From positions 4,958,501 through 5,022,500 of the forward strand of contig NZ_CP014263.1 in assembly GCF_001988955.1 (NCBI RefSeq): 64,000 nt of DNA, in the 5' to 3' direction. The stretch comes from Spirosoma montaniterrae (GTDB taxonomy: Bacteria; Bacteroidota; Bacteroidia; Cytophagales; Spirosomataceae). Under the pieces are notes generated by a model. The model did no database searches and had not been told where the DNA came from. It saw nothing but the letters and a program-made list of their open reading frames with translations. The position numbers and the translations under genes were made by a program. Positions 1 to 14,129 of this stretch are shown here, one piece after another (position 1 is the stretch's first letter; each line of letters opens with the position of its first letter).

Positions 1-2502
1 ACGGGCCAGTTCACGGTCGATAGTGGCTCCGGCGGCACAGAAGTGTGGATAAACCGTACTGCCGAGTGCCATCACCGAAAAGTCGAATCCACGAAGCGAA
101 TTTGTTGGTATATGCCGCACCTGATCAACAAACGCCATCGCATTACCGGGCGGTTCGCCGTTGCCGAACGTAGACACCACCACCAGTACCGTCGACTCTT
201 CGCCTAAACTCGCCGGGCTGTAGTCGTCTAAGGCCATCACGCGGGGGCGGTGGCGGTTTAACCGGCGGGCTGCCTGCCGGGCGTAACTCTCGGCAGTACC
301 TGTTTCTGAACCGTACAAAATCAAAACGCGTTTTGGGCGTGCCCGGCTCACGGTGGTTGGCGTATGGCCGTTGGGCTGCGGTATGGCACCGGCCCAGGTT
401 TCGGGGCACGTGTCTTCTCCGGCTACGGTCAGTTCATTGTCAATAACGGCCCAGCGGTCGGCAGCATAATGAAAATTAGGACTTAAATAGAAGTCGCGCA
501 TTTCGTGGTGCCAGACCGACGTTGAACTTCCGCCTGCTGCGGGTGTTACCCATGACCATTGCGCCGGACATTCCCGCCCGGCCCGTTTTTCGCGCTGATC
601 GTGCGCTATGAACTGCCGGGAAGCCGTCTGATGATCGACCAGCGTAACTTTAGCTTTAGAGAACGAGTGCAAAACAGCAACGTTCAACTCCAGAAAGGCC
701 CGGTCGCGCCATAGCGTTTGCTCGGTTGAGGTATCGAGACCCATTGTGCGGGCAATAAATTCGGCTTTATTATATCGCCCCTCTTCCCACAAATTGCGGG
801 CAATTTCGGTTTCCATAAACCACCCGTTGAATGGTACACAACCGTAGCTGATACCGCCAATCTCCATCCGAAAATTAGTGATAGCCGGTATGGCGCACCA
901 CTGCAACTTCAGTGCGTCGAATTCGGGGTAAAATGGATGCTCGATAGGCACCATCAGCACGTCGTCTGGCTCGAATTCGTACATCCGGGGCAGATGACCG
1001 GGCACGTCGATGACCAAGGGCAGGTAATCGAAGGCCGTTTTTTGCGCTGGTGGCACCCAGCCCTGCCGAATAAGAGCTTTGGTTAAGGCCAGATTTGCCT
1101 GGTCGCCCAGTACAGAACCGTCTTCCAGTTCATAAGCGGCAAACCGAACATACTGACTATTCCAGATGCGCGGACCCCAGTGTTCCTGCGGCTGTTTTGG
1201 CCGAAACACATTCATGACAATCTGCATATTGCCGCCGTTAGTGGCAAGACGCATGTGTTCGGCACATTCCCGAAATATCTCGTCGGGGTCGGTAACGTGG
1301 CGCAGGTCGCGCACAATCAGATTCCGCCAGGCAATTCGGCCAATGCATTTCGAGGAGTTGCGCCAGGCGAGTTGTGCGCCATACGATAGCTCGTCGAAGG
1401 TGTGCGTATAGGTGCCTGTGGCATGAATTTCGCGTTCGATTTCGGCCAGCCGCCGTTCAGTTTTTGCAGCCTCCCAGTCTAACTCGGCAGCTATCTGACC
1501 GATAAACTCGCGTGCCTGCCGGATTGTCCGCTGCTGATTGACGATTGGCTGCTGCAATACGTGACTGACGCGGGTTAGCAGACGTTGCCAGGCTTGTTCG
1601 CGCTGGAGCGAGAAATTGGGAATATGCTGCTTCATAACCCGCAGCATTGGCTCAATCAATTTACCGTAGGCATCGGGCGGTACGCGGTGGTTGGTATGAA
1701 CGCGGGCCAGTTCGCGCAACTCGGCCATGACATCATGACCCGTTTCAAGTGACTGAACCAGAAACGCAATGCTTTGCATTAAATGCTGCGCCAGCGTGTC
1801 GATATCGGTTCGCACAAAGTAGGGTAGAATGTCGGGGTGCGTTTCAAACAAAGCCCGGTAAAAATCGACGCCAATGGCAAGCGGTTTGGCAGCCAGCCGG
1901 TCGCCGTCGTGCCGCATGGCCCGTATCATGGCCGGGGTCAGGGCCTTGTCATAATCGTCAATTGCCTGTAGTGCGAGAGGTAAAATGTGTTGTGAGAAAA
2001 AACGATAGGGGGCCGACAGCGTGCCCAATGCCAGATTCTCGCGATCATATTCTTCGAGGTGTGGCACCTGGAGCAGCGTCCAGGTCCAGACACGCCGGGC
2101 CGTCAGCCAATGGCTGGGCCTCATACCCAGATCGGCCAGCAGTGTAACAGACGCTTCAATTGTTCGTTTTTGGGTCGACTGTTCGGGGTAAATGCCTCGG
2201 TAGCTTTCGCGTAGTATCCGCTCAGTATGCGGCATCAACTGCCGAACACCGGCGTCGAAGAGTTCGGCAAAGTAGCCTGGCATTTCATCGATAGCATCGC
2301 CGAAGCGTTCACGCAAACCGGGTTCTTCGTGCAGCAATCGCTCAAAAAACAACTCGATGAGCATGTCCTGAAAGGCCAGAAATTTATTCCATATATCCTT
2401 AACGAGTACCTGCTCCGGTGCCGTCAAGAGCTTATTGGCAGCCGGCTCATCGGTCGAGACAGGTAGCTCATCTCTCTCTTCATTCGTTGAAAATATAATC
2501 AC
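1..2502 (-). CDS. nos: Multidomain nitric oxide synthase (pseudoglobin-globin-NOS oxygenase-diflavin reductase), 3' part outside window
   Basis: Makes NO and citrulline from L-arginine with NADPH and O2 (family knowledge). The reading frame is open from the GTG at 2502 to the window edge (834 codons). Residues about 35-180 are globin-like, but the F-helix region (LADLGMRPSHW) has Leu where the proximal His should be, so it is a pseudoglobin. Residues about 190-310 resemble flavohemoglobin globin: Tyr215 at B10 (DFYRALF) and proximal His269 (LARVH). The NOS oxygenase follows: heme Cys386 in NSSKCIGRIAWRN, substrate Glu566 in NGWFMETEI, and a Trp-rich pterin region ending SVWHHEM. A Pro-rich linker without a basic amphipathic (calmodulin-type) helix leads to flavodoxin: GSETGTAES at 731-739, STFGNGEPPG, then the NOS-reductase-like YPHFCA. 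Ferredoxin-reductase domains should lie beyond base 1. The start is inferred: no in-frame ATG precedes residue 46, and a stop lies at about 2541. It lies 28 nt after the regulator gene, as last visible gene of the NO operon. Confidence 0.93.
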   Translation of the reverse strand, partial: MIIFSTNEERDELPVSTDEPAANKLLTAPEQVLVKDIWNKFLAFQDMLIELFFERLLHEEPGLRERFGDAIDEMPGYFAELFDAGVRQLMPHTERILRESYRGIYPEQSTQKRTIEASVTLLADLGMRPSHWLTARRVWTWTLLQVPHLEEYDRENLALGTLSAPYRFFSQHILPLALQAIDDYDKALTPAMIRAMRHDGDRLAAKPLAIGVDFYRALFETHPDILPYFVRTDIDTLAQHLMQSIAFLVQSLETGHDVMAELRELARVHTNHRVPPDAYGKLIEPMLRVMKQHIPNFSLQREQAWQRLLTRVSHVLQQPIVNQQRTIRQAREFIGQIAAELDWEAAKTERRLAEIEREIHATGTYTHTFDELSYGAQLAWRNSSKCIGRIAWRNLIVRDLRHVTDPDEIFRECAEHMRLATNGGNMQIVMNVFRPKQPQEHWGPRIWNSQYVRFAAYELEDGSVLGDQANLALTKALIRQGWVPPAQKTAFDYLPLVIDVPGHLPRMYEFEPDDVLMVPIEHPFYPEFDALKLQWCAIPAITNFRMEIGGISYGCVPFNGWFMETEIARNLWEEGRYNKAEFIARTMGLDTSTEQTLWRDRAFLELNVAVLHSFSKAKVTLVDHQTASRQFIAHDQREKRAGRECPAQWSWVTPAAGGSSTSVWHHEMRDFYLSPNFHYAADRWAVIDNELTVAGEDTCPETWAGAIPQPNGHTPTTVSRARPKRVLILYGSETGTAESYARQAARRLNRHRPRVMALDDYSPASLGEESTVLVVVSTFGNGEPPGNAMAFVDQVRHIPTNSLRGFDFSVMALGSTVYPHFCAAGATIDRELAR

Positions 2503-2530
2503 AGTAGTAGTTTTGGTTGCCTGATGAGGG

Positions 2531-3223
2531 TCAGAGCAAATTCAGGCGACTCATAAGTTCTGACTTGTTGGCCCGGCTAATAGGAATCACCTTGTTACTG
2601 ATAACCAAGGTGTTCTCTTCGATGTCAACAATTTTTCCGAGGTGCACGATGAACGAGCGATGTACGCGCAAAAATTGCGTACCTAACTTTTCTTCAAGCG
2701 ACTTCATTGTGGTATACACCACGTGCGTCTGACTACTGGTGAATATTTTGACATAATCACCCGTGTTTTCTACATACGAAATGGCATCGAACGGCAGGCG
2801 AATATAGCGGCCATCGGTTTTGATGTAAATTTCGGTACGACCGTCGGCCACTTCGGGCCGGTTTCGTGCGCTGAGTTCCAGCACCTTTTCGACCGCCACC
2901 TTAAACCGGGGCAGCGTGATGGGCTTTTTTAAGTAATCAGTTACCTGATACTGAAAGGCATCGAACGCATACTCGGTCTTGCTCGTAGTCAGCACCACAT
3001 ACGGAATGGCAGGTAGCTGCTCAAGCAAATCAAACCCCGACAGGCCGGGCATCTCAACGTCGAGCCAGATCAGGTCAACGCTTTGCTCGGTCAGAAAATC
3101 AAGTGCAGCCGTTGCATTATCAAATACCGACAATACATCCAGCGACTCCTGTTGTTCGCACAGCCGTTGCAACGACTTACGCGCCATCAATTCGTCTTCA
3201 ACGATAATACAGGTCAAACTCAT
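2531..3223 (-). CDS. LytTR-family response regulator
   Basis: A 230-residue DNA-binding response regulator. Residues 1-120 form a receiver domain with acidic residues near VEDE (8-11) and phosphoacceptor Asp55 in LIWLDVEMPG; the conserved Lys is in YLKKPI. Residues about 128-230 form a LytTR DNA-binding domain (YIRLPFDAISYVENTGDYVKI region, then FLRVHRSFIVHL), which binds DNA through beta-strands rather than a helix-turn-helix. It starts 4 nt after the hybrid kinase gene and ends 28 nt before the NO synthase gene, so it is very probably the output of the H-NOX/kinase relay. LytTR regulators usually pair with LytS-type kinases; here the upstream kinase is a HisKA hybrid with an HPt domain that could pass phosphate to Asp55. 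Target promoters are unknown, and I see no clear LytTR direct repeats before the operon. Confidence 0.93.
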   Translation of the reverse strand: MSLTCIIVEDELMARKSLQRLCEQQESLDVLSVFDNATAALDFLTEQSVDLIWLDVEMPGLSGFDLLEQLPAIPYVVLTTSKTEYAFDAFQYQVTDYLKKPITLPRFKVAVEKVLELSARNRPEVADGRTEIYIKTDGRYIRLPFDAISYVENTGDYVKIFTSSQTHVVYTTMKSLEEKLGTQFLRVHRSFIVHLGKIVDIEENTLVISNKVIPISRANKSELMSRLNLL

Positions 3224-3227
3224 TCGA

Positions 3228-6104
3228 TTAGGCTTGACTTAGCTTTTGTAGTTCTTTTTTCAATACTGGCAATTTTTCGTCAATATTTCTAATGATAGTA
3301 GAACAATAATGTTCTAAATCATCTGTTTCAACACCTTCCGATGCTTTTTTTTCTATCTGCCGCATGGCGTCTTCCAGCGTCGTTAGTCCTACCATGCCAA
3401 GTGTAGGTTTGAGCCGATGCGCCAAACGAGCCACAGCGGGCCAGCTTTTGGCCCGGCAAAGTTCTGGTAACTCGTTGAATTCTGGAAGTACATCGGTCAG
3501 GAAAGACTGAAACATATCGGCAGCATAGGCGGCATCGCTGCCATATAATTCTTCCAGCCGTTCCCGGTCAAGGCCGTTGTCAGACGCGTACTCGTCCTTC
3601 GATACGAGCGGTTCGGTAGGGGCGTATCGTTGTAGAATAGCCAGCAATTGGCCCGGCTCGAACGGTTTGGTCAGAAAGTCAGTCATACCTACCTCCATAG
3701 CCGAACTTTTATGATCGAGCATAGCCGAAGCTGTCAGGGCCACAATAGGTACATGCTGATTTGGATTGTGCGTACTCCGAATGGCGACGGTGGCCTCGTA
3801 GCCGTCCATGATCGGCATCTGAATATCCATCAGAATCAAATCGAAAGGTTGCGTTTTAGCCACTTCAACAGCCTTCTTTCCATCTAAGGCTAATGTGTAC
3901 GGAATTTTCCACTTGGTTAGCAAACTACCTATGTACTTTTGGTTCATAAGGTTGTCTTCTACCACCAGTACCCGGCAAACGGGCAGCGCATCGGCTACCT
4001 GCGCCAGTTTGTATTCGGGGCTGTTTTTGGGGTCGGGCAGCGTGTTGGCACGAGCGTAGGGTAAGGTAAACGTAAACGTGCTTCCCTGCCCAGACCGGCT
4101 TTTAACCGAAATTGTACCTCCCTGAAGCTCAACTAATTCTTTGGTGATTGCCAGCCCTAAGCCAGTGCCTTTGTGTTTGTGTCCCTGCGGGTTCACCTGC
4201 TTGAATTTCTGGAATACCAATCCCAGCTTCTCTGCCGGTATGCCAATACCGGTGTCGGCCACGGCAAACTCGATCCAGCACGTGTTTTCTTCTTCTTTGC
4301 GAACACGGGCCGTAATCTCGATGCTGCCTTCTTCGGTAAACTTTTCGGCATTGCCCACCAGATTGAGCAGAATCTGGTTCAACATCACATCGTCGCCTAC
4401 GAAGTCGCCCGTTACGCGGGCGTCGAGCATCACGTCGATGGTAATTGGTCGTTGTTCAAGTTTCATCTCGAACACCTTCTGAGTGGCCCGCAGGAGGCCG
4501 CTCAAGTCGAAAACGCGGGGGTGAACTTCCACCCGGCCCGCTTCTATCTTAGTCATATCCAACAGGTCAGAAATCAGGCTATGCAAAAAATCGGCTGACG
4601 TTTTAAGAATGTCGATATACTCACGCTGTTGCCGCGATGGCTGCGTATCGAACAACAAATGCGACATACCAATGATGGCATTCAGGGGCGTTCGTATTTC
4701 GTGGCTCATGTTTGCCAGAAATTGTTTTTCGGCCTGACGGGCTTCTTCGGCAATGTGTTTGGCCGTTGCCAACTCTTCTTCGAGCTGTTTTCGTTCGGTC
4801 AGGTCGTAATGAATACCCATTGAGCCAACCTGTACGCCGGTTTCGTCGCTGATGGGTACGCCACTGATGAGCACCCAGATACGCTCGCCATTCTTGCGAA
4901 TCAATTGTAGTTCATACGAACTGGCAATACCCAGCATCCGCTGCTGCTGCTGCCGTTCGAGCACGTCGGCAAACTCGTTGGGAATCAGCAGTTCAGCAGC
5001 ATTTTTACCAATCAGTTCGTCTTCCGTGTAGCCCATCATACGGCAGAACCGTTCGTAGGCCCGCACCACTTTCTGCTCATTATCGACTTCAAGCAGGCCG
5101 AGTTCCATGTTATTCATGATACCCCGGTACTTCTCTTCACTCCGCCGAATTTGCTCGCGTGCGCGGTATTTTTCGGTAACGTCGGTATATCGCCACAGAT
5201 GCCCTCTGTATTTCGCGTCTAAGAAAATGGGAATGTAGTCTAACTCGTAAATTTGCCCGTTACTCATGCTGATTTCCTCACCCACGCTGGTCTGACGCTC
5301 ACGCAGCAGTTGGTCCATCCGGGCAACGAAAGCGTCAGGATGCACAAATAGGTGCTTGACTTCCTGGCGGGCCTGACCACAATCGTAACCCACTAATTCG
5401 GCAGGGCTGAGGGGAATCTGGAAGATGTCGCAGAATAGCTGATTTGCCAGCGTTACTTTACCATGTTCATCTTCTACCAAAACCCCCGACTGTAGATTGG
5501 TTATTAACGTTGCCAGCCGGATTTGAGTAGTCTGAAGAGCGATTTGGGCCTGTTTGCGGTCCGACACGTCGCGGGCAACGGCCACCATTTCGGCCACCTC
5601 ATCGCCCGATTCGATTAGCCGAACTGTTTGCCCGATCCAGACCGAACGCCCGTTTTTAGCGATTACCGGAAACTCATGGTATGTGCTGTCGTGGCGGTTC
5701 TCCAGCATACCCTGGTAAAAATCGGCTAAGGGTTGCCGGTGTTCGGGAGTAACAAAATCAGTAAAGTGCTGCCCAATAATTTCGGATTCCGTATAACCCA
5801 ATAATTTTTCAACCACCGGGCTAACAAAGGTGAAATACCCGGTTGGCGAAATTTTATAAATAATGTCCTGTACCGATTCAATGAGTTGCCGGTAGCGTTG
5901 ATCACTTTCACGAAGTTCAGCTAACTTAGCCCGAATTTGTTGCTCCAGGTTTTCATTCAGGTGCAGAAGTTGCTCGTTGGCACTATGCAGTTGTTCGTTG
6001 GCATAGTACAGTTCGAGTGCTTTCGCTTCCAGAATAGCTTCGGCCTGCTGACGAGCCTGCCGCTCGCGGGCAAGCCTTCGTTTCAGTAAGTCAATGTTTT
6101 CCAT
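3228..6104 (-). CDS. Hybrid sensor histidine kinase with three PAS domains, REC and HPt
   Basis: A 958-residue soluble hybrid kinase; no membrane segment is visible. Domains in order: coiled coil (1-70), PAS1 (71-190), PAS2 (195-315), PAS3 (322-442), HisKA with the H-box MSHEIRTPLNAI and phosphoacceptor His468, HATPase (about 570-685; N box NLVGNAEKFT, G1 ADTGIGIP, G2 GTGLGLAI), receiver (710-828) with Asp760 in LILMDIQMP, and HPt (about 850-945) with His896 in LAHRLKPTLGMVG. The layout supports a full phosphorelay His468-Asp760-His896 and then the LytTR regulator, whose gene starts 4 nt downstream. The gene begins 6 nt after the H-NOX gene. Stand-alone H-NOX proteins of other bacteria act by binding and inhibiting a partner hybrid kinase, so NO control of this kinase is the natural inference. 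With no transmembrane or periplasmic region, its input is cytosolic. Confidence 0.94.
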   Translation of the reverse strand: MENIDLLKRRLARERQARQQAEAILEAKALELYYANEQLHSANEQLLHLNENLEQQIRAKLAELRESDQRYRQLIESVQDIIYKISPTGYFTFVSPVVEKLLGYTESEIIGQHFTDFVTPEHRQPLADFYQGMLENRHDSTYHEFPVIAKNGRSVWIGQTVRLIESGDEVAEMVAVARDVSDRKQAQIALQTTQIRLATLITNLQSGVLVEDEHGKVTLANQLFCDIFQIPLSPAELVGYDCGQARQEVKHLFVHPDAFVARMDQLLRERQTSVGEEISMSNGQIYELDYIPIFLDAKYRGHLWRYTDVTEKYRAREQIRRSEEKYRGIMNNMELGLLEVDNEQKVVRAYERFCRMMGYTEDELIGKNAAELLIPNEFADVLERQQQQRMLGIASSYELQLIRKNGERIWVLISGVPISDETGVQVGSMGIHYDLTERKQLEEELATAKHIAEEARQAEKQFLANMSHEIRTPLNAIIGMSHLLFDTQPSRQQREYIDILKTSADFLHSLISDLLDMTKIEAGRVEVHPRVFDLSGLLRATQKVFEMKLEQRPITIDVMLDARVTGDFVGDDVMLNQILLNLVGNAEKFTEEGSIEITARVRKEEENTCWIEFAVADTGIGIPAEKLGLVFQKFKQVNPQGHKHKGTGLGLAITKELVELQGGTISVKSRSGQGSTFTFTLPYARANTLPDPKNSPEYKLAQVADALPVCRVLVVEDNLMNQKYIGSLLTKWKIPYTLALDGKKAVEVAKTQPFDLILMDIQMPIMDGYEATVAIRSTHNPNQHVPIVALTASAMLDHKSSAMEVGMTDFLTKPFEPGQLLAILQRYAPTEPLVSKDEYASDNGLDRERLEELYGSDAAYAADMFQSFLTDVLPEFNELPELCRAKSWPAVARLAHRLKPTLGMVGLTTLEDAMRQIEKKASEGVETDDLEHYCSTIIRNIDEKLPVLKKELQKLSQA

Positions 6105-6110
6105 ACTGGC

Positions 6111-6650
6111 TCAGTCTTTCACAATATCGAACAGAACCACAGTGCCGTCGCTGGTCAGTTTTTTCTGAACCACAGTCGCCTTTTCGTTAAAATGGGTCAA
6201 ACAGCCTTCAATCAGGCCATGCGCAAAGTCAGATAGTCGTCGTTCCGATTCGTATCGCATGGTAAGGTGGTTGGCGGCAGGCTGCTCAACAGTAAAATGA
6301 GGTAACTCAGCGTCAGGATATAGTTTTCTGACCTCAACGTGAATGTAATGATGCACCGAACTCAATAGTTCAAAGGCAGATGTTGCCCGCTCAACAAATG
6401 GGCGGTAACTGCGTGTAAAAGAAGCAAACATATATCGTCCGTACGTCCGAAGCAACTCTGGTACGGGTAGTCCTGTTTGTTGACTGAGATTGGTGACCAA
6501 TGTTACCATCTCTCCGTGATCGTAAGTGCCTACGGCTGTATAAACGCCACCAGAAGCTAAAGATTCCTCACAAAGAAGAAGATCGACCAGCTCGTAACCA
6601 AACTTTTCTTCGACCATCTCCAGAAATTCAGTAAACACAATACCTTTCAT
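6111..6650 (-). CDS. H-NOX heme nitric-oxide sensor (HNOB domain)
   Basis: A 179-residue stand-alone H-NOX domain of typical length that begins MKGIVF, like many family members. The heme ligand is His104 in the motif YIHVEVRKLYP, and the propionate-binding YxSxR motif is Tyr133-Glu-Ser135-Glu-Arg137. Counting five residues past Arg137, as for Tyr140 of the O2-binding Thermoanaerobacter protein, gives Phe142: the distal Tyr is absent, as expected for a sensor that selects NO over O2. It is the first gene of the NO operon, 6 nt before the hybrid kinase, with the NO synthase as last visible gene. The family role is to bind NO through heme Fe(II) and change partner kinase activity. The identification rests on motifs and overall likeness to known H-NOX proteins. 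Confidence 0.95.
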   Translation of the reverse strand: MKGIVFTEFLEMVEEKFGYELVDLLLCEESLASGGVYTAVGTYDHGEMVTLVTNLSQQTGLPVPELLRTYGRYMFASFTRSYRPFVERATSAFELLSSVHHYIHVEVRKLYPDAELPHFTVEQPAANHLTMRYESERRLSDFAHGLIEGCLTHFNEKATVVQKKLTSDGTVVLFDIVKD

Positions 6651-6895
6651 GAAAAACCATTGGATTAAAATCGCACTAATTTATAAAAAAGCGGTAACAT
6701 AATAGATTAGACAACAGATGAAAGTATATTTATCTATTGCGAATTCTGGCGAGTTTCACCAAAAAACGTGCAAAACATACGGTTCATCGAAATCTCAGGA
6801 CCCTTTAGACGGAATTGATGCAGATTTGTATCATCAAAACGCACAGAAACAACAACGAATCTTAACCTCCTGCCCATACAACACAAATACAAGTC
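6651..6895. other. Divergent spacer between the NO operon and an ECF sigma gene
   Basis: This AT-rich spacer of 245 bases must hold the promoters of both the H-NOX operon (minus) and the sigma factor gene (plus). I find no TTG/TAnnTTTG promoter of the Bacteroidota housekeeping type on either strand, so both units may use another sigma factor or an activator. A 78-codon plus frame (6718-6954) has no recognisable features, overlaps the sigma start and is not called. Confidence 0.4.
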
Positions 6896-7450
6896 ATGAA
6901 ACTTACCCTAAACGACGAAGAAGTCATCCGGCAGTACTTGACCACCCGCCCTAACGACTGTTTTGAAACGCTTTACAACCGCTATGTGCAGAAGGTGTAC
7001 AAACGGTGCTATTCCATCACAAAGGACTCGGAAAAGGCGCAGGATTTTACGCACGACATTTTTATTCGGATGTTCTCGCGGCTCGACCGCTTTCAGGAGC
7101 GTTCAACTTTTTCGACCTGGTTGTACTCAATTTCGTATAACTATTGCATGGATCAGCTTAAACTGACCAAGCGAAACCCCACCGTAACACTTGAAGAAGA
7201 ATTAGACCATGAACCTTCTACGGCTTCCGACGAATCGGAAACGATGGAATATGGCCTTCAGCAACTGGCGCGGGCTATGAATGCGCTGGCTCCGCAGGAA
7301 GCGATGATTTTACGCCTGAAATATGAAGAAGGGCTTGACGTTCAGCAAATTGCTGCCAAACTCAACCTAAAAGACAGTGCCGTGAAAATGCGACTCAAAC
7401 GCTCGCGTGACAAAGTGCGTCAGCTATGCGGCCCGTCGCTTTGGGGATAG
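6896..7450 (+). CDS. ECF-type RNA polymerase sigma factor (sigma-70 family)
   Basis: A 184-residue two-domain sigma factor. Region 2 (about residues 22-90) contains the FTHDIFIRMF segment and the FSTWLYSISYNYCMDQL segment typical of -10 recognition. Region 4 (about 118-175) carries a helix-turn-helix (LAPQEAMILRLKYEEGLDVQQIAAKL, then KDSAVKMRLKRSRDKVR). No anti-sigma gene follows, as the next gene is convergent. The gene is divergent from the H-NOX/NOS operon and shares its upstream spacer, so a regulatory link is possible but unproven. A hairpin with a T-run at 7583-7627 could end its transcript. The start ATG at 6896 gives a normal N-terminus (MKLTLNDEEVI). Confidence 0.9.
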   Translation: MKLTLNDEEVIRQYLTTRPNDCFETLYNRYVQKVYKRCYSITKDSEKAQDFTHDIFIRMFSRLDRFQERSTFSTWLYSISYNYCMDQLKLTKRNPTVTLEEELDHEPSTASDESETMEYGLQQLARAMNALAPQEAMILRLKYEEGLDVQQIAAKLNLKDSAVKMRLKRSRDKVRQLCGPSLWG

Positions 7451-7582: not shown

Positions 7583-7627
7583 TTAGCGACTCACCGCCGA
7601 CCCGGCAGGTTGAGTCGCTGATTTTTT
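7583..7627 (+). terminator. Rho-independent terminator of the sigma gene, inside the 3' end of the convergent gene
   Basis: The arms agcgactca (7585-7593) and tgagtcgct (7611-7619) form a 9-bp stem followed by gattttttt on the plus strand. The hairpin overlaps the last codons of the convergent glycosyltransferase gene, so those bases serve both as coding sequence and as terminator. Confidence 0.65.
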
Positions 7628-8362
7628 TCTGAAATCGCCCCGAGAAAAGTATTTTTCAATCAGGCAGTACATCAGAATAAAAAAGTAACGGCTCCCCATC
7701 TCCTTGATTTTCAGTTTCGATTCGCCATACTTCCGGTTGGTCCAGCTATTCGGCACTACAGCGTAACTATAGCCCCGTACAATGGCCTTCAAAGGCAACT
7801 CAACCGTTAGATTAAAGTGTGGTGATAAAAAAGGCTTCACGCCTTCGATGGTTTCGCGCTTGTATAACTTGAAAGCGTTGGTGGTATCGTTGTAACTAAT
7901 GCCCATTACAAGCCGCACAATGGCGTTGGCAATGCGGTTGATGAATTTCTTCAGGGGCGGGTAATCAATCACTTTCCCGTCGCGGCCCCACCGCGACCCA
8001 AATACGGCATCGACGTCGGTTTCGCGCATTTTGTTATAAAACCTCACCAAATCTTCGGGGTCGTCCGATAAATCGGCCATGAACACGGCCACACAATCGC
8101 CCGTGAAGCGTTCCAGCCCGTAGCGCACGGCATAGCCGAAACCGTTGGGGCCAGGGTTGGTGAAATAGGTCAGCGTTGGAATTTCGGTAGCTGCCAGTTC
8201 CTGCAGCACGCGCAGGGTGCCATCTTTGGAATTATCGTTGGTTACGCAGATTTCATGCTGAATCCCATGCTTCGCCAGCGTTTGGTATAACGCCCGCAAG
8301 GTAGGTGGCAGCGACTCTTCTTCGTTATATGCCGGAATAACAACGCTTAGTTTCATACGCAA
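7583..8362 (-). CDS. GT2 glycosyltransferase, dolichyl-phosphate mannosyltransferase-like
   Basis: A 259-residue GT-A fold enzyme of glycosyltransferase family 2. The nucleotide-sugar site is near the N-terminus (VVIPAYNEEESLPPT), with VTNDNSKDGT as first aspartate region, FMADLSDDPED as the DxD-like metal site, and a conserved FGSRWGRDG loop. Compared with DPM1/polyprenyl-phosphate glycosyltransferases it lacks the C-terminal membrane anchor, though a hydrophobic patch (YFFILMYCLIEKYF) lies near the end. It probably moves a sugar from a nucleotide donor to a lipid carrier; donor and acceptor cannot be told. It is the last gene of the glycan cluster read leftward, 63 nt after the next GT2 gene. 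Met3 could equally be the start. Confidence 0.85.
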   Translation of the reverse strand: MRMKLSVVIPAYNEEESLPPTLRALYQTLAKHGIQHEICVTNDNSKDGTLRVLQELAATEIPTLTYFTNPGPNGFGYAVRYGLERFTGDCVAVFMADLSDDPEDLVRFYNKMRETDVDAVFGSRWGRDGKVIDYPPLKKFINRIANAIVRLVMGISYNDTTNAFKLYKRETIEGVKPFLSPHFNLTVELPLKAIVRGYSYAVVPNSWTNRKYGESKLKIKEMGSRYFFILMYCLIEKYFSRGDFRKKSATQPAGSAVSR

Positions 8363-8425
8363 TGCGGGTGGAAACCCGCTTTTGACTCTAATTGTAAAAG
8401 AAAGATAGCAGTTTTTGATTTACAT

Positions 8426-9382
8426 TCACTGCCGGTGTGGCATCAGCCGAATCGAACTATATAGTTTTCGCATTGGCTCCGGCAGCAAATAAGTCCAGAC
8501 AACGTCTTTGGCTTTATCCCAGTCGGGTTGGGCCATATACAGATATTTGAGCGCAAGGCCAGCTCGCCGAAAGTAGCTTTGCTTATACTGTCGGGCATCG
8601 AGCATCATTCGGTAATACCGGGCAATGTTTCGGCGTAGCACACGGTCGTACTTATAATCGAGTTCGCGGTTGATGTCGGTATACATCTGGATGCGGTTCC
8701 GCAGAAAAGTCTCGTCGAAGTAATTGTCAGCGTAACTGGCCCCGCCCCGGTTTTTCCGATACACCGACATCACGTCGGGAATATAGCCAATCTTACCCAG
8801 TTTTGCTTTCAGAATCAGGCGCGGAATATCACCACTCGACGATTCGCGGAACCAGGTTGGATACTCGCTGATGTTGTTGCGGTACATGGTGCTCGACGTT
8901 GCCATGAACCAGATTTCATCTTCGCCGATCAGGTCATCGACCGTATAATACGGCTTCATGTCCGGCCCATTGAGCAGGTGCGAAGGCGTACCGTCTTCAT
9001 AGGTAATAACGGCATTATGAAAAACCGTTGAGTAATCCGGGTGAGCATCTAACAGGTCGGCCTGTTTCTGGAGCTTAAGCGAGTCGGTCCAGTAGTCATC
9101 GCCGTCCATCAGGGCGTAGTACTCGCCTTTGGCGCGTTTAAGCGTTTCGAGGAAGTTGATACCGCCGTTTTTGCCCATATTGTGCGGGTGCAGAACGCCA
9201 ATTACCAAACCGGGATGCGCCCGCTCATACTCCTGAATGATTTCACGCGTACCATCCGACGAAAAATCATCACCCACCAAAATCTCTATCGGGAACGTCG
9301 TTTGCTGCGCAAGGGCACTATCAATCGCTTTGCGAATAAACTTAGCCTGATTGTAGGTAATGATTAAAACGCTTACTTTCAT
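8426..9382 (-). CDS. GT2 family glycosyltransferase
   Basis: A 318-residue family 2 glycosyltransferase. The N-terminus (MKVSVLIITYNQAKFIRKAI) is the typical nucleotide-binding start; GDDFSSDGT and the metal-binding ALMDGDDYW follow at about residues 42 and 92. The C-terminal third is basic, Tyr-rich and helical, which suggests peripheral membrane contact. I start it at Met 9382: an ATG ten codons upstream lies in the intergenic repeat and adds no family-like sequence. It probably adds a sugar to a surface glycan. The hairpin repeat 9384-9463 separates it from the upstream oxygenase-like gene. Substrates are not deducible. Confidence 0.88.
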   Translation of the reverse strand: MKVSVLIITYNQAKFIRKAIDSALAQQTTFPIEILVGDDFSSDGTREIIQEYERAHPGLVIGVLHPHNMGKNGGINFLETLKRAKGEYYALMDGDDYWTDSLKLQKQADLLDAHPDYSTVFHNAVITYEDGTPSHLLNGPDMKPYYTVDDLIGEDEIWFMATSSTMYRNNISEYPTWFRESSSGDIPRLILKAKLGKIGYIPDVMSVYRKNRGGASYADNYFDETFLRNRIQMYTDINRELDYKYDRVLRRNIARYYRMMLDARQYKQSYFRRAGLALKYLYMAQPDWDKAKDVVWTYLLPEPMRKLYSSIRLMPHRQ

Positions 9383-9383
9383 T

Positions 9384-9463
9384 GTAAGAGGTTGTAAGTT
9401 GTAAGGTTGCAAGGTGTAAGGTTATGGCGGTACACCCTACCCCTTACAACCCTACAACTTATT
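9384..9463. repeat. Intergenic imperfect inverted repeat of reiterated words
   Basis: The left arm (9384-9424) repeats the word ttgtaag/gtaaggt; the right arm (about 9431-9462) holds the complement cttacaaccctacaactt. Together they can fold into a long imperfect hairpin between two minus-strand genes. It belongs to the class of word-repeat palindromes seen at ten or so spacers here. Confidence 0.7.
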
Positions 9464-10290
9464 TATGCGGTTACTTCTTTCGCCTGCACAATCTGCTCTT
9501 TCCAGCCCTGCGGCTCTTTATAGTCGGCGGGCGTTCCCCAGGGGTTATAAAACGGCAAAATTGCCACCCACCGACCGGCGGGGTCGTCCCAGCTAAAACG
9601 GTCGGCAAAGCTTGACGGGCTAACCCAGTGGGGCAGATCGTACCGGAACAGAATCATGTCGCCCATGTCCTGATAACCTTCTGTTTCAACGATATGGTCA
9701 TTAATGACATAGCCCGTGCCGCCCGAATGGTAGTCCTGACCATATTGATTGAGAGCCAGAATCGTGCCTACTTTCTGCGGGTTCAGCGGGTGCCAGTGCC
9801 GTCCGAAGAAGCTGCCACCCAGCGGGTAATGCGTTACCTGCGGATGAAAATAGGGTTCACCCTTCCGAACGCCGTATGGCTCATTATTGCCCGTCAGTGA
9901 ATTCCAGAATCGGCGCATAGGGTCGAAAACCTGGAGCAGGTTTTGTTGGGCTGGCTGTTCGAGGTCCAGAATGGCATCGAACGTATGGTCATGAAACAAC
10001 TGCGGAGCCTGCTGAATTTTAGCAATGTGCAGTCGTTGTTTATGCTGGTTATTGTCGAACGTATCAGGCCCTTCGGCTAAGGGCGTTTTGGCGGCCCAGG
10101 CGCGGGTCGTCTCAATTACGTTGCGAAGTACGGCTTCGGGAATGCCGGTTTTGATAATCACGATGTTTGGCTCATTGACCAAACGCATCACCTCTTCGGG
10201 CGAAATTTCAGGAACGATCTGTCCGTCTTTAAATTCGGCGTTAACCTTGATGAGATACTTGGCTACTTCCTGCATACGATTATGTGGCAA
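9463..10290 (-). CDS. Possible Fe(II)/2-oxoglutarate-type oxygenase
   Basis: A 275-residue soluble protein that I assign only tentatively. The centre reads GGSFFGRHWHPLNPQK, then a beta-rich stretch with SGGTGYVI, GDMILFRYDLPHWV and finally DPAGRWVAILPFYNPWG. His-rich first strand, distal His and late Arg resemble the double-stranded beta-helix of 2OG oxygenases and phytanoyl-CoA hydroxylase relatives, but a clean HxD is not seen, so metal binding is unproven. It sits in the glycan cluster between a GT2 gene and a beta-propeller gene, where such enzymes can modify sugars or small metabolites. Met6 (10275) is an alternative start. Another cupin-like role is possible. Confidence 0.6.
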   Translation of the reverse strand: MPHNRMQEVAKYLIKVNAEFKDGQIVPEISPEEVMRLVNEPNIVIIKTGIPEAVLRNVIETTRAWAAKTPLAEGPDTFDNNQHKQRLHIAKIQQAPQLFHDHTFDAILDLEQPAQQNLLQVFDPMRRFWNSLTGNNEPYGVRKGEPYFHPQVTHYPLGGSFFGRHWHPLNPQKVGTILALNQYGQDYHSGGTGYVINDHIVETEGYQDMGDMILFRYDLPHWVSPSSFADRFSWDDPAGRWVAILPFYNPWGTPADYKEPQGWKEQIVQAKEVTA

Positions 10291-10402
10291 TTTGTGGCAA
10301 GTTAGACTCCTGTCCGGGCGAAAGCCACGTTGCGAGGGCTTTCTTACTGAGCGGAAACGTACAAAATTAAGGCATCTGCCCCAGTTAACACGCTGATCTT
10401 AC

Positions 10403-11350
10403 TCAGGGTTTCATCTGATTTGTGGCATAGCCGAAGCCCGACGCCCCGAACCCGTTGCCATTATACAGCATTACCCACTGATTGCGGTGCGGGAAAATGT
10501 GACAATAATCCATCATGAGCGAGTCCCAGCCGTCTGCCGAGCGTTCGATGCCCGCCCGGTCGTCGTGGCGTTCCCAGTTGATGCCGTCTTTCGATTCGGC
10601 ATAACCAATCCGGTAGCTGCGCTGCACGTCGGTGCGGTAATTGATGGCGTTCCGATACGAGAAGTACATTTTGTACAGCTCCCCGTCTTTATACACCGTT
10701 GGCCGGCCAATGGCGTCTGTAAATTCGTCATAACCCACACAAACGTGGCCCGTGCGTTCCCAGCGGATACCGTCCTGCGATTCAGCGTATTTTACGTCGT
10801 AAAATGGTTCGGGATGACCGTTGATGACCTCTATTTTTGTACACGACAAGTACCACATTCGCCACGAGTTACCCTCACGTATCACGCATGGTTGCGCTAC
10901 CCACACCTGATCGTAGATCGAGCGGTCGAGCAGGGGGCCGGTGAACTTGCGCTCGAAGGTTAACCCACCGTCGCGGCTGATAGCCAGGCCAATGCCAAGC
11001 CGATAGCTGGCGGTTTCGCTTTTATTCCAGCCTGTGTAGTACAGCCAGATTTCATCGTCCGAATCGTCGGACTGAACCGGCAAAAACCACGAAGGCATAG
11101 CTCCGGTTTCATCGAACATACCCACGGCTCCTTTCGTCAGGCAGGGTTTATCGTGAACATACAGCACCTTACTAAGATCGTCGGGGTCAAGTTCAACGAA
11201 AGAGGTTGCCGAGGAACTGTTTTCGTCGCGGGTGGCAAAATAGACCCGGAGTTTGTCGTCGAGCGGATACCCAAATGGCACCTGCGCGTGGGTGCGGCTG
11301 AACGCCTGCGAGCCATCGGGTTTATAGATCAGTCCTTGTTTTGTCCACAT
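10403..11350 (-). CDS. Glycosidase-like beta-propeller protein (GH43/GH32/GH130-type fold)
   Basis: A 315-residue protein without signal peptide. It shows repeated blades of the five-bladed propeller type: several copies of the pattern W-x-x-x-G-h-x-Y/A-x-S-x-D-G-I/L-x-W/F-E/R (for example ESQDGIRWERTG, ESKDGINWERHD, SRDGGLTFERKF), alternating with MWYLSCTK, MYFSYR and WLYYTGW strands. Such propellers are common in GH43/GH130-like proteins encoded in surface-polysaccharide loci, where they may trim or phosphorolyse glycosides. Catalytic acids cannot be assigned safely. It lies 6 nt after the GT-C transferase gene and is presumably co-transcribed. Cytosolic location fits intracellular sugar handling. 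Confidence 0.7.
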   Translation of the reverse strand: MWTKQGLIYKPDGSQAFSRTHAQVPFGYPLDDKLRVYFATRDENSSSATSFVELDPDDLSKVLYVHDKPCLTKGAVGMFDETGAMPSWFLPVQSDDSDDEIWLYYTGWNKSETASYRLGIGLAISRDGGLTFERKFTGPLLDRSIYDQVWVAQPCVIREGNSWRMWYLSCTKIEVINGHPEPFYDVKYAESQDGIRWERTGHVCVGYDEFTDAIGRPTVYKDGELYKMYFSYRNAINYRTDVQRSYRIGYAESKDGINWERHDDRAGIERSADGWDSLMMDYCHIFPHRNQWVMLYNGNGFGASGFGYATNQMKP

Positions 11351-11356
11351 AGGATG

Positions 11357-13039
11357 TTATAGCTGGTTGCGGTCTTGAGATAATGGTGATTTTGCCCGGT
11401 CGTTCCGCACAAAAATGCGTGTGTCGTGCACCATGCCAACGTATTGATACTGAGACTTTATAAGCTCCTGAAGTGGTTTTACCAGTTCATGTCCCTGCGT
11501 AGCGCGGTCGGTCATCCAGAGGTTGTTTTTTCCTACGGCGTCGACAAAGACGGCTGGTTTTGAGCGCATCATATTGCGAACGTAGCGTTGCTGGTAGGTT
11601 GCCTGTAACGGATGCGCAAACGCGCTGCGAATGGTATGATTTTCGGCTACGCCCTGCGGCATTTGGGTTTGCACGTAATAGTCGCATCGCCAACCCCAAA
11701 CGGCCAGTTTTTCGCCAGGTCTGGCATATTTTGCAATCTCTTTCGACACCGGCGACTGCTGAATGGCCCAACCACCCTGCCATTCGCTGACGTAGGTATT
11801 CATCGGCTGTTTCTGAGCAATGCGCAGGCCCATCTGCACACCAAACACGAGCAGAAAAATTGCCAGCAAACCCAGCGGCCACCAGTGCCGCCGATTTTGT
11901 GGAGTACTTTGCAGCAACACGTCCCATGCCCGTGCCAGCAGCAGCAGCAGTGGCCCTATCAGAAAAAACAGGTAATGCACATACTCCGAACCTGTGCGCG
12001 TAATCGAGAAAATCGTTGCAAGTACGAGCAACACAACAAACCCTATTTTCTGCCAGCCTGGGCTAACTACCCGCACCGCCCGACGCCGGGCCATCACAAC
12101 CGCCACCATAACCACAGCCAGTACCAACGTCACAAACCAGCCGAATGCTTCGCCTTTCTGAAAAAAAGCAGGCAAACGCAGCAGGCTAAGCAATTGATTG
12201 GAATCGCTGGCATACTGGAAGTTACCAATGATGTAGAACGTTACAAAATCGTCGTACATGCCATTGAGCCACATAAAGCCAATGAAAAGTGCCGAGAAGG
12301 CAAGCCCCCCCACGGCCAGCGCAGCCAGACGAACAGTTTTTTCGATACTCGTCAGGCCCGACCCTGCCAACACAACCAATCCTGCAAATAGCCCAATCAC
12401 GGCGGCAATTGGTACGCCCTGAAGTTTACCATAAGGAATCATTCCTAACAGAAAACCAATTAGAGCCAGCCGCCAGATGGGCGGGCGCGTTTCGGTAAGC
12501 AATACCGCGTATAGCAGCGTACTCCAGCCCAACAACACAATGGCGACCAACTCGCTGTTGTAGTGGAGAAAATCGCCATTTTGCGTTAGGCCAAGCATAA
12601 ACACCAGCGGTAGCAGAGCCAACCGGGCGGGCGTTTCACCAAACCAGCGTTGCGCGGTCAGAAAAAATAGCCATAAACTGAGCGCAACTAAGGCATAGGC
12701 CGTCAGGTGGGCCGAAATAAAATCGAAGGGTAGACCAACGAACGTAGGCAGGATCAGAAAGTAGCTGTCTAAAGGCCCTCCCGTTGTGCCATCGACCGAC
12801 CGGAAATAAACGGGGTCTTGCCGCAACGTGAGAGCCTGCGCAATCATCTGACTTTCATCAGGATTGACCTCATTGTTGTAGACGATGCTGGGCAATCGGA
12901 GCAGAAACAGCAGACCAAGTGCGGCCACGGCAAATGCCGGACGGCTAAGCCGAAGCTGCACCGTTACCCACCCCAAAAGCCAGCATAAACCGTAAACAAT
13001 CAGCCAGTAAATAAACGGGTTAGAATCGAACCGGAGCAT
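11357..13039 (-). CDS. GT-C fold membrane glycosyltransferase (family 39-like)
   Basis: A 560-residue polytopic membrane protein with about eleven to twelve hydrophobic segments through residue 420, then a soluble C-terminal domain. The first external loop has NNEVNPDES with the Asp-Glu pair typical of ArnT/PMT-like enzymes that use polyprenyl-phosphate sugars at the outer face. The C-terminal domain (GEKLAVWGWRCDYYVQTQMP onward) is like the periplasmic part of other GT39 proteins. The neighbouring DPM-like GT2 could supply a lipid-linked sugar. Gaps are 6 nt to the propeller gene and 16 nt from the epimerase gene, so one transcript is likely. The sugar and acceptor are unknown. Confidence 0.82.
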   Translation of the reverse strand: MLRFDSNPFIYWLIVYGLCWLLGWVTVQLRLSRPAFAVAALGLLFLLRLPSIVYNNEVNPDESQMIAQALTLRQDPVYFRSVDGTTGGPLDSYFLILPTFVGLPFDFISAHLTAYALVALSLWLFFLTAQRWFGETPARLALLPLVFMLGLTQNGDFLHYNSELVAIVLLGWSTLLYAVLLTETRPPIWRLALIGFLLGMIPYGKLQGVPIAAVIGLFAGLVVLAGSGLTSIEKTVRLAALAVGGLAFSALFIGFMWLNGMYDDFVTFYIIGNFQYASDSNQLLSLLRLPAFFQKGEAFGWFVTLVLAVVMVAVVMARRRAVRVVSPGWQKIGFVVLLVLATIFSITRTGSEYVHYLFFLIGPLLLLLARAWDVLLQSTPQNRRHWWPLGLLAIFLLVFGVQMGLRIAQKQPMNTYVSEWQGGWAIQQSPVSKEIAKYARPGEKLAVWGWRCDYYVQTQMPQGVAENHTIRSAFAHPLQATYQQRYVRNMMRSKPAVFVDAVGKNNLWMTDRATQGHELVKPLQELIKSQYQYVGMVHDTRIFVRNDRAKSPLSQDRNQL

Positions 13040-13055
13040 AAGAATACCCGGACGC

Positions 13056-14129
13056 TTATTTAGCTACGGCCAGACGGGCTACCATGCTGTCGTGAATCTG
13101 CACCATCGTCGCCTTCAGATCATACGTCCACCACCAGCCCGGATAGTGGGCCTGGAACTTGCTCAGATCCGAGATGTACCAGATGTGATCCCCACTCCGG
13201 TTGGTCTCACTGTACTGGTAGTTCATCACGTTGCCCGAAATCTCTTCGCACAACCCGATGGCCTCCAGCATCGAGCAGTTGGCATACCGGCCACCACCCG
13301 CATTGTAGACTTCGCCCGCTCGGGGGTTCTGATAGAAATGCCAGAACATATTTACCAGGTCCCAACTGTGGATGTTGTCCCGCACCTGCTTGCCCTTGTA
13401 GCCAAAGATCGTGTATTGGGTGCCGGTGATGGCACACTTCATCAGATAACTCAGAAAGCCGTGCAACTGCGCCCCCGAATGGTTGGGGCCCGTCAGGCAG
13501 CCCCCCCGGAAAACGCCCGTCTTCATGCCAAAGTAGCGGCCATACTCCTGGACCATGATGTCGGCGGCTACTTTGCTGGCCCCGAAGATGGAGTGCTTGG
13601 TATGGTCCAGACTCATGTGTTCATCGATGCCGTGTTCAAAGTAGGCATGGGTCTGCTCGATTTCCCAGCGGGTATCGGTCTCGATGAGGGGCAGGAAGTT
13701 GGGATTGTCACCGTAGACTTTGTTGGTGGAGGTGAAGATGAAGACGGCTTCGGGGCAGTGCAGGCGGGTCATCTCCAGGAGGTTAAGCGTGCCGACGGCA
13801 TTGACGCCAAAGTCGGTGAAGGGTTCGCGGGCGGCCCAGTCGTGGGAGGGCTGGGCCGCGGTGTGGAGGATGAGCTTGATGTCGGTTCCGAACTCCTGGA
13901 AGATGGTCTGGAGCTGGGGCACCTCGCGGATGTCGGCGGTGCGGTGGTGGTAGTTGGGGAAGGCGTCGGCGAGTCGGTTTCGGTTCCAGTCGGTGGAGCC
14001 GTCGGGTCCGAAGAAGTACTGACGCATGTTGTTGTCGATGCCGACGACGAGGTCGAATTTATCGGCGAAAAAGGCGACGGCTTCACTGCCGATGAGGCCC
14101 GCCGAACCCGTAACTAATGCAATATTCAT
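13056..14129 (-). CDS. NAD-dependent epimerase/dehydratase (CDP-paratose epimerase-like, Tyr to Phe at catalytic site)
   Basis: A 357-residue extended SDR enzyme. The NAD-binding GSAGLIGSE motif is at residues 8-16, and it has Asp in VVGIDNN, the [11 protein letters not shown] strand and [11 protein letters not shown]. It most resembles CDP-tyvelose/paratose 2-epimerases and related nucleotide-sugar epimerases. In the active-site helix the codon TTC gives IFGASK where these enzymes usually have YxxxK: the catalytic Tyr seems to be Phe while the Lys is kept. Either chemistry or substrate differs, or the class uses Phe. The 5' half (about 13700-14100) is richer in G+C at third positions than its neighbours, which also creates a long meaningless plus frame. 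First gene of the glycan cluster, 138 nt after crtB. Confidence 0.83.

Follow-up and report, generated by a model that had tools for sequence, protein, structure and literature searches.

Does a bacterium use nitric oxide (NO) made by its own NO synthase (NOS) as a signal to itself? According to one review, a true gasotransmitter ought to be formed and to exert its effect within one cell, and the function of bacterial NO is unclear (PMC6195638). Here we report a locus of Spirosoma montaniterrae that bears on this question. It lies at the start of a stretch of 64,000 nt (the window; bases 4958501-5022500 of the 5.8-Mb one-contig genome), where genes for an H-NOX sensor, a hybrid histidine kinase, a LytTR response regulator and a NOS follow one another, and a gene for an ECF sigma factor diverges from them. 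We read it as an NO-producing and NO-sensing unit in which NO, self-made or external, would act via H-NOX, a phosphorelay and LytTR on the ECF gene, and assign this reading a probability of about 0.5.

Gene order and conservation of the locus

The features are listed below, with coordinates counted from the window start; domain calls on window proteins are from Pfam.

6111-6650, minus strand: H-NOX, 179 aa, candidate haem NO sensor (HNOB, 1.1e-40; PDB H-NOX chains matched; residues given below)
3228-6104, minus strand: hybrid kinase of the soluble type, 958 aa (PAS domains, HisKA, HATPase, REC, HPt)
2531-3223, minus strand: LytTR response regulator, 230 aa (REC and LytTR DNA-binding domain)
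1-2502, minus strand, GTG start at 2502: globin-NOS, the 5' 834 of 1362 codons inside the window (NO_synthase, 1.6e-141)
6896-7450, plus strand: ECF sigma factor, 184 aa, divergent from H-NOX (Sigma70_r2, 2.4e-14)
6759-6791, minus strand: 33-bp candidate LytTR operator, placed between the start of ECF and that of H-NOX (seen on aligning 21 upstream regions)
6694-6702, minus strand: GTTAC block, 44-52 nt before H-NOX, a possible operon promoter element (alignment)

The successive gaps between the four minus-strand genes are 6, 4 and 28 nt. An earlier reading of the window, made from its letters and open reading frames (the sequence-only reading), had described exactly this run, with an HPt domain in the kinase, and is borne out by gene calls and Pfam. 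The full NOS gene, read from the genome (L002 10914-15002), extends 1587 nt past the window start, and the gene after it is convergent.

Thirty-six Spirosoma genomes were searched for NOS, H-NOX and the H-NOX-kinase-LytTR cassette. H-NOX was found in 20 of them and NOS in 14, all of which lie among the 20, and NOS was never seen away from the cassette in the genus (14/14 linked). The order H-NOX, kinase, LytTR, NOS is kept on one strand in all 13 single-contig loci; the fourteenth (G002) is spread over two contigs, with the break inside the kinase gene, and the NOS of G012 is cut off by a contig end. A comparison of neighbouring genomes had been proposed by the sequence-only reading, and the four genes do co-occur there, the cassette standing at every one of the 14 NOS genomes. 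Chance adjacency of NOS and cassette was considered and is ruled out by this linkage.

In the genus the gaps from H-NOX to kinase to LytTR range from -4 to 15 nt. Between LytTR and NOS the gap, measured from the farthest possible start, is 25-46 nt in six of the 14 genomes, the window genome included, and 154-312 nt in the other eight; judged from this spacing, strict co-transcription of NOS is therefore not a conserved feature. The idea of one unit stands as regards tight spacing, intact relay residues and conservation, and falls as regards a single transcript shared by all. A scan for sigma-70 promoters and terminators gave no excess of sites over shuffles. Conservation of the GTTAC block does not extend to G037, a genome of another genus that also carries the cassette.

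In the NOS tree 13 Spirosoma sequences form one group (SH-aLRT 100), and the groups G007-G010, G008-G013, G012-G011-G023, G026-G025-G035 and G019-G030 are common to the NOS and LytTR trees; the LytTR tree additionally places G033 with G008-G013 and a G021 copy with G019-G030. Mantel correlations between NOS and cassette distances were r 0.90 for the kinase, 0.72 for LytTR and 0.57 for H-NOX (each 1 of 2001), a measure that cannot tell linkage from common species history and whose H-NOX value is lowered by a frameshifted G019 sequence.

Outside the genus the H-NOX profile was run on 82 NOS loci, namely the best 80 of a scan of named genomes and two from order-mates. H-NOX lay within the flanks at four, three of them from Spirosoma and one from a Natronohydrobacter metagenome-assembled genome (MAG), the sole exception among SyNOS-type genes of other taxa in this set; this rules out H-NOX as a general partner of globin-NOS. 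In the MAG (L101 5384-12064, one contig of one MAG) genes for an H-NOX (181 aa) and a 563-aa hybrid kinase are divergent from a globin-NOS gene. This pairing may be independent, because its NOS sits on a long separate branch. NOS occurs in 2/295 genomes of the Natronohydrobacter family, and the second (G778), broken in two pieces, has no H-NOX nearby. Across 17 non-Spirosoma globin-NOS genomes (L092 left out) any H-NOX was found in four, linked in one. Among 395 Bacteroidota genomes 12 carry NOS, two of them Spirosoma, and the ten others have no H-NOX. The two order-mates (G083, G098) possess a stand-alone NOS oxygenase and an unlinked H-NOX. A plasmid search returned nothing but reductase-like matches among the matches listed.

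Sensor, relay and synthase

The H-NOX protein has the proximal His104, the residues Tyr133-x-Ser135-x-Arg137, which we take to be the YxSxR haem motif, and Phe142. H104, Y133, S135 and R137 are intact in all aligned NOS-linked H-NOX except the frameshifted G019. Position 142 is presumably, after the Thermoanaerobacter protein, the place of the distal Tyr in O2-binding H-NOX, and Phe occupies this O2-stabilising place in 19/19 readable sequences. The protein is likely an NO-type sensor, since Phe142 stands where O2-binding H-NOX have Tyr. Two aberrant sequences were seen: the H-NOX of the G019 NOS operon (L057) carries a frameshift, either genuine or an assembly artefact, and in G037 (L078), which has the cassette without NOS, the haem His has moved one place (IHVEV to HSVEV). 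Downstream of the sensor, kinase residues His468 (HisKA), Asp760 (receiver) and His896 (HPt) are invariant in 20/20 aligned kinases and the receiver Asp55 of LytTR is kept in 20/20 aligned regulators, so that the His-Asp-His-Asp relay chain is intact from kinase to LytTR output.

The NOS protein of 1362 aa contains globin, NO_synthase, flavodoxin (FMN), FAD and NAD domains according to Pfam. Its layout in residues is pseudoglobin ~26-200, globin 213-316, oxygenase 323-684, flavodoxin 728-859, FAD 911-1132 and NAD 1165-1279. Residues 26-1343 align with SyNOS of Synechococcus PCC 7335 (PDB 9q05, 9q15) at 1514 bits and 51% identity. Pfam sees one globin, and the pseudoglobin was assigned by homology to SyNOS 177-339. 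From this alignment we class the protein as a SyNOS-type enzyme with pseudoglobin, globin, oxygenase, flavodoxin (Fld) and FNR on one chain, an order common to both proteins. The sequence-only reading was right to call a synthase, as the NO_synthase match attests, and missed that it is a globin-NOS-reductase fusion, which its gene limits had cut; a plain synthase it is not. The haem ligand Cys386, the Ile541 typical of bacterial NOS, the substrate-binding Glu566 and globin Phe229 (CD1) and His269 (F8) are invariant in 13/13 aligned Spirosoma NOS, and the synthase active-site W664 is, like C386 and E566, kept in all 13.

In the alignment F229 and H269 correspond to F380 and H422 of SyNOS (PMC6104048). 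The SyNOS globin is described as an NO dioxygenase turning NO into nitrate, and as Hmp-like when taken with the reductase (PMC12922734). The window NOS shares this fusion of globin, NOS and reductase with its nitrate-forming relative SyNOS, and so may on balance yield nitrate rather than free NO; we predict an enzyme that makes NO and probably also destroys it. It is further reported that SyNOS supports growth of E. coli with arginine as nitrogen source, and that the S. linguale NOS sits in the cyanobacterial globin-NOS branch (both PMC6104048). Whereas SyNOS has an N-terminal C2 domain that responds to Ca2+ (PMC12922734), this domain is absent from the window NOS and likewise from G002, G007 and G010, which marks the window NOS, by its domain content, as a C2-less variant of the SyNOS type. 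An N-terminal extension of a length that would fit C2 is present in 10/14 Spirosoma NOS (judged on length throughout and on alignment for some).

The ECF gene and the 33-bp site

New at this locus are an ECF sigma gene divergent from H-NOX at 20 of 21 H-NOX cassettes (20 Spirosoma and G037) and a conserved 33-bp site between the two. The site occurs once in the window and in 0 of 100 shuffles. Across the 36 genomes, 46 matches were found with up to three mismatches (<=3) vs 9 for a reversed control pattern, and 24 genomes have the site. At this threshold it is present at 19/20 Spirosoma H-NOX cassettes, G026 having a weaker one. A LytTR orthologue, defined by at least 58% identity (the next class reaching at most 42%), exists in 30/36 genomes; the site accompanies it in 24/30 and is found in 0/6 without it, counts that are not kinship-independent.

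Seven congeners (G004, G014, G016, G020, G027, G032, G034; L234-L240) retain the ECF gene, a short HPt-only frame and LytTR, and H-NOX and the kinase core are absent at these loci; the HPt was found at 7/7 with a cut looser than 70 bits and at 6/7 with 70 bits. They look like a relay from which sensor and kinase core have disappeared. A weight matrix built from the 21 cassettes, in whose definition the reduced loci took no part, finds the site at 7/7 of them, 76-79 nt from the ECF start, with scores of 13.1-33.5, vs 7.0 for the best of almost 500 random 330-nt stretches of the window. The site therefore follows ECF and LytTR and not H-NOX, and because these seven loci keep ECF, site, HPt and LytTR, we regard it as a candidate LytTR operator. 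Known LytTR sites consist of two repeats of 9-11 nt, 11-13 nt apart (PMC4847170). Conserved blocks occupy positions 1-12 and 25-33 of the 33-bp site; the 12 nt that part them would be compatible with such a spacing, while the block sequences do not clearly match as repeats.

Outside the H-NOX cassettes there are 27 sites, and 14 of these were examined: five lie by ECF-like genes, six by small genes for proteins of ~100 aa, and one each by a kinase-LytTR pair, a GH10 gene and a polysaccharide lyase gene. In G009 the site lies upstream of a kinase-LytTR pair that has no H-NOX. The small-gene sites, in G023, G011, G026, G035, G025 and G012 (L221, L224-L227, L230), are 86-143 nt from the gene. The ~100-aa proteins look alike by eye and matched no Pfam family (two tested); their genes are a possible LytTR regulon. 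The only other site copy in the window genome (G000:C1:4681468-4681500, L219) is at the 5' end of the gene for a GH10 glycosyl hydrolase. Beyond the ECF gene, at window positions 7583-14129, lies a minus-strand run with glycosyl transferases and a sugar epimerase-like gene (Pfam on one), which gives no sign of membership in the NO operon.

Weighing the readings

Known H-NOX/histidine kinase systems of Shewanella oneidensis, Vibrio fischeri and V. harveyi likewise place H-NOX beside a soluble (hybrid) kinase that donates to a phosphorelay (PMC8738867, PMC6769237). Their outputs are c-di-GMP enzymes or LuxU/LuxO; in Spirosoma the output is LytTR with an ECF gene, and NOS is in the same gene run. 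The LytTR regulators AgrA and YpdB share the receiver and LytTR domain and sites made of two spaced repeats, but the Spirosoma kinase, unlike theirs, is soluble, H-NOX-linked and equipped with an HPt relay. In open-licence PubMed Central we found no paper with both Spirosoma and H-NOX and no description of NOS and H-NOX in a single operon. The combination in one bacterium does have a precedent, which qualifies the sequence-only reading: Silicibacter sp. TrichCH4B, which Rao, Smith and Marletta are said to have described in mBio in 2015, reportedly has both NOS and H-NOX, with NO acting on biofilm. Its output is said to be a diguanylate cyclase, and its NOS was reportedly not placed in one operon with H-NOX.

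The following sequence of events is proposed. NOS would make NO from arginine using its own reductase, and its globin would oxidise NO to nitrate, so that free NO would arise only when synthesis exceeds removal. The H-NOX haem would bind NO, self-made or external, and NO-bound H-NOX would modulate the hybrid kinase encoded with it, by precedent through inhibition, as for the kinases of Shewanella, V. fischeri and V. harveyi (PMC6769237). Phosphate would pass from His468 to Asp760, His896 and LytTR Asp55, and NO would lower LytTR phosphorylation if kinase inhibition carries over. LytTR would bind the 33-bp site between the ECF gene and H-NOX, with ECF as main target, and may also act on the H-NOX-NOS operon via the shared promoter region; in the window genome the LytTR-NOS gap of 28 nt is too short to hold a separate NOS promoter. 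The loop would be negative if phosphorylated LytTR activates and NO inhibits the kinase. Feedback on NOS, positive or negative, is something we infer.

A number of results weigh against this reading. The cassette occurs without NOS in six congeners and in G037, which makes NOS an optional member of the unit even though all 14 NOS genes are linked to it; in the six congeners a 540-aa-class aldehyde dehydrogenase gene lies 111-199 nt past LytTR (Pfam on one). The LytTR proteins of G019 and G030 are far from all others (branch 0.6), and their NOS group with the window NOS. Some of the weak site matches are chance, given the nine reversed-control matches, and neither block of the site clearly repeats the other. 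The weakest cassette sites belong to G025 (35.2), G026 (26.2) and G035 (29.8), vs 40.5-51.9 in the other 18, and in this clade the ECF gene decays (split over two frames in G025; no match even at E 10 at the G035 cassette) while the operon with NOS persists. The site decaying where ECF decays while NOS operons persist, ECF is probably its main target rather than the NOS operon, and autoregulation of that operon by LytTR is only possible. The sequence-only reading had sensor, relay and LytTR in place; the ECF gene and the site, which shift the target, it overlooked. No such site was found in the eight long LytTR-NOS gaps, behind which NOS may have its own promoter. Finally, the globin may remove NO before it signals. 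The ECF result and the globin are why we hold self-signalling by the cell's own NO to be an evenly balanced proposition.

The globin also opens the way to an operon for NO removal or nitrogen salvage, in which H-NOX would read outside NO, the relay would tune a globin-NOS yielding nitrate, as an NO dioxygenase or from arginine, and self-made NO would be no signal. The invariant F229 and H269 with their SyNOS counterparts (PMC6104048), the dioxygenase and Hmp-like character of SyNOS (PMC12922734) and its support of growth on arginine nitrogen (PMC6104048) all suit this account, as does a cassette that exists without NOS, its sensor being independent of the synthase. A pure scavenger, however, needs no oxygenase, and C386, E566 and W664 are kept in 13/13; nor was a plain flavohaemoglobin seen in the cassette. 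We consider this account unlikely, though the strongest of the competitors. Somewhat less probable still is that the genes are co-located and separately regulated, the NO or redox relay having its output in ECF and NOS riding along under post-translational control or its own promoter. The site tracks ECF, 154-312 nt without a site precede NOS in 8/14 genomes, NOS has been lost in six congeners, and the N-terminal extension retained by 10/14 NOS is in SyNOS the Ca2+-responsive C2 domain; yet the gap is 25-46 nt in 6/14, including the window genome, and NOS is never away from the cassette. That H-NOX senses O2 or redox state, or is degenerate, with the NOS link a relic, we find very improbable: the G019 frameshift and the displaced haem His of G037 would fit, but the haem-site residues are otherwise intact in the aligned NOS-linked H-NOX and Phe replaces Tyr in 19/19 readable sequences.

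Returning to the NO-producing and NO-sensing unit, a more speculative extension, which we put forward with considerable doubt, is that of an NO homeostat. One operon with synthase, NO-removing globin, sensor, relay and regulator would drive an ECF regulon, loss of C2 in this branch would have moved control of NO output from Ca2+ to NO-dependent transcription, and Natronohydrobacter would be a second independent origin of such wiring. The locus bears on the question posed at the outset. In culturable Spirosoma species it joins the making, removal and sensing of NO to the control of genes, together with a candidate operator and target, which makes the proposal directly testable, and it offers a bacterial counterpart to the animal pairing of NOS with an H-NOX receptor.

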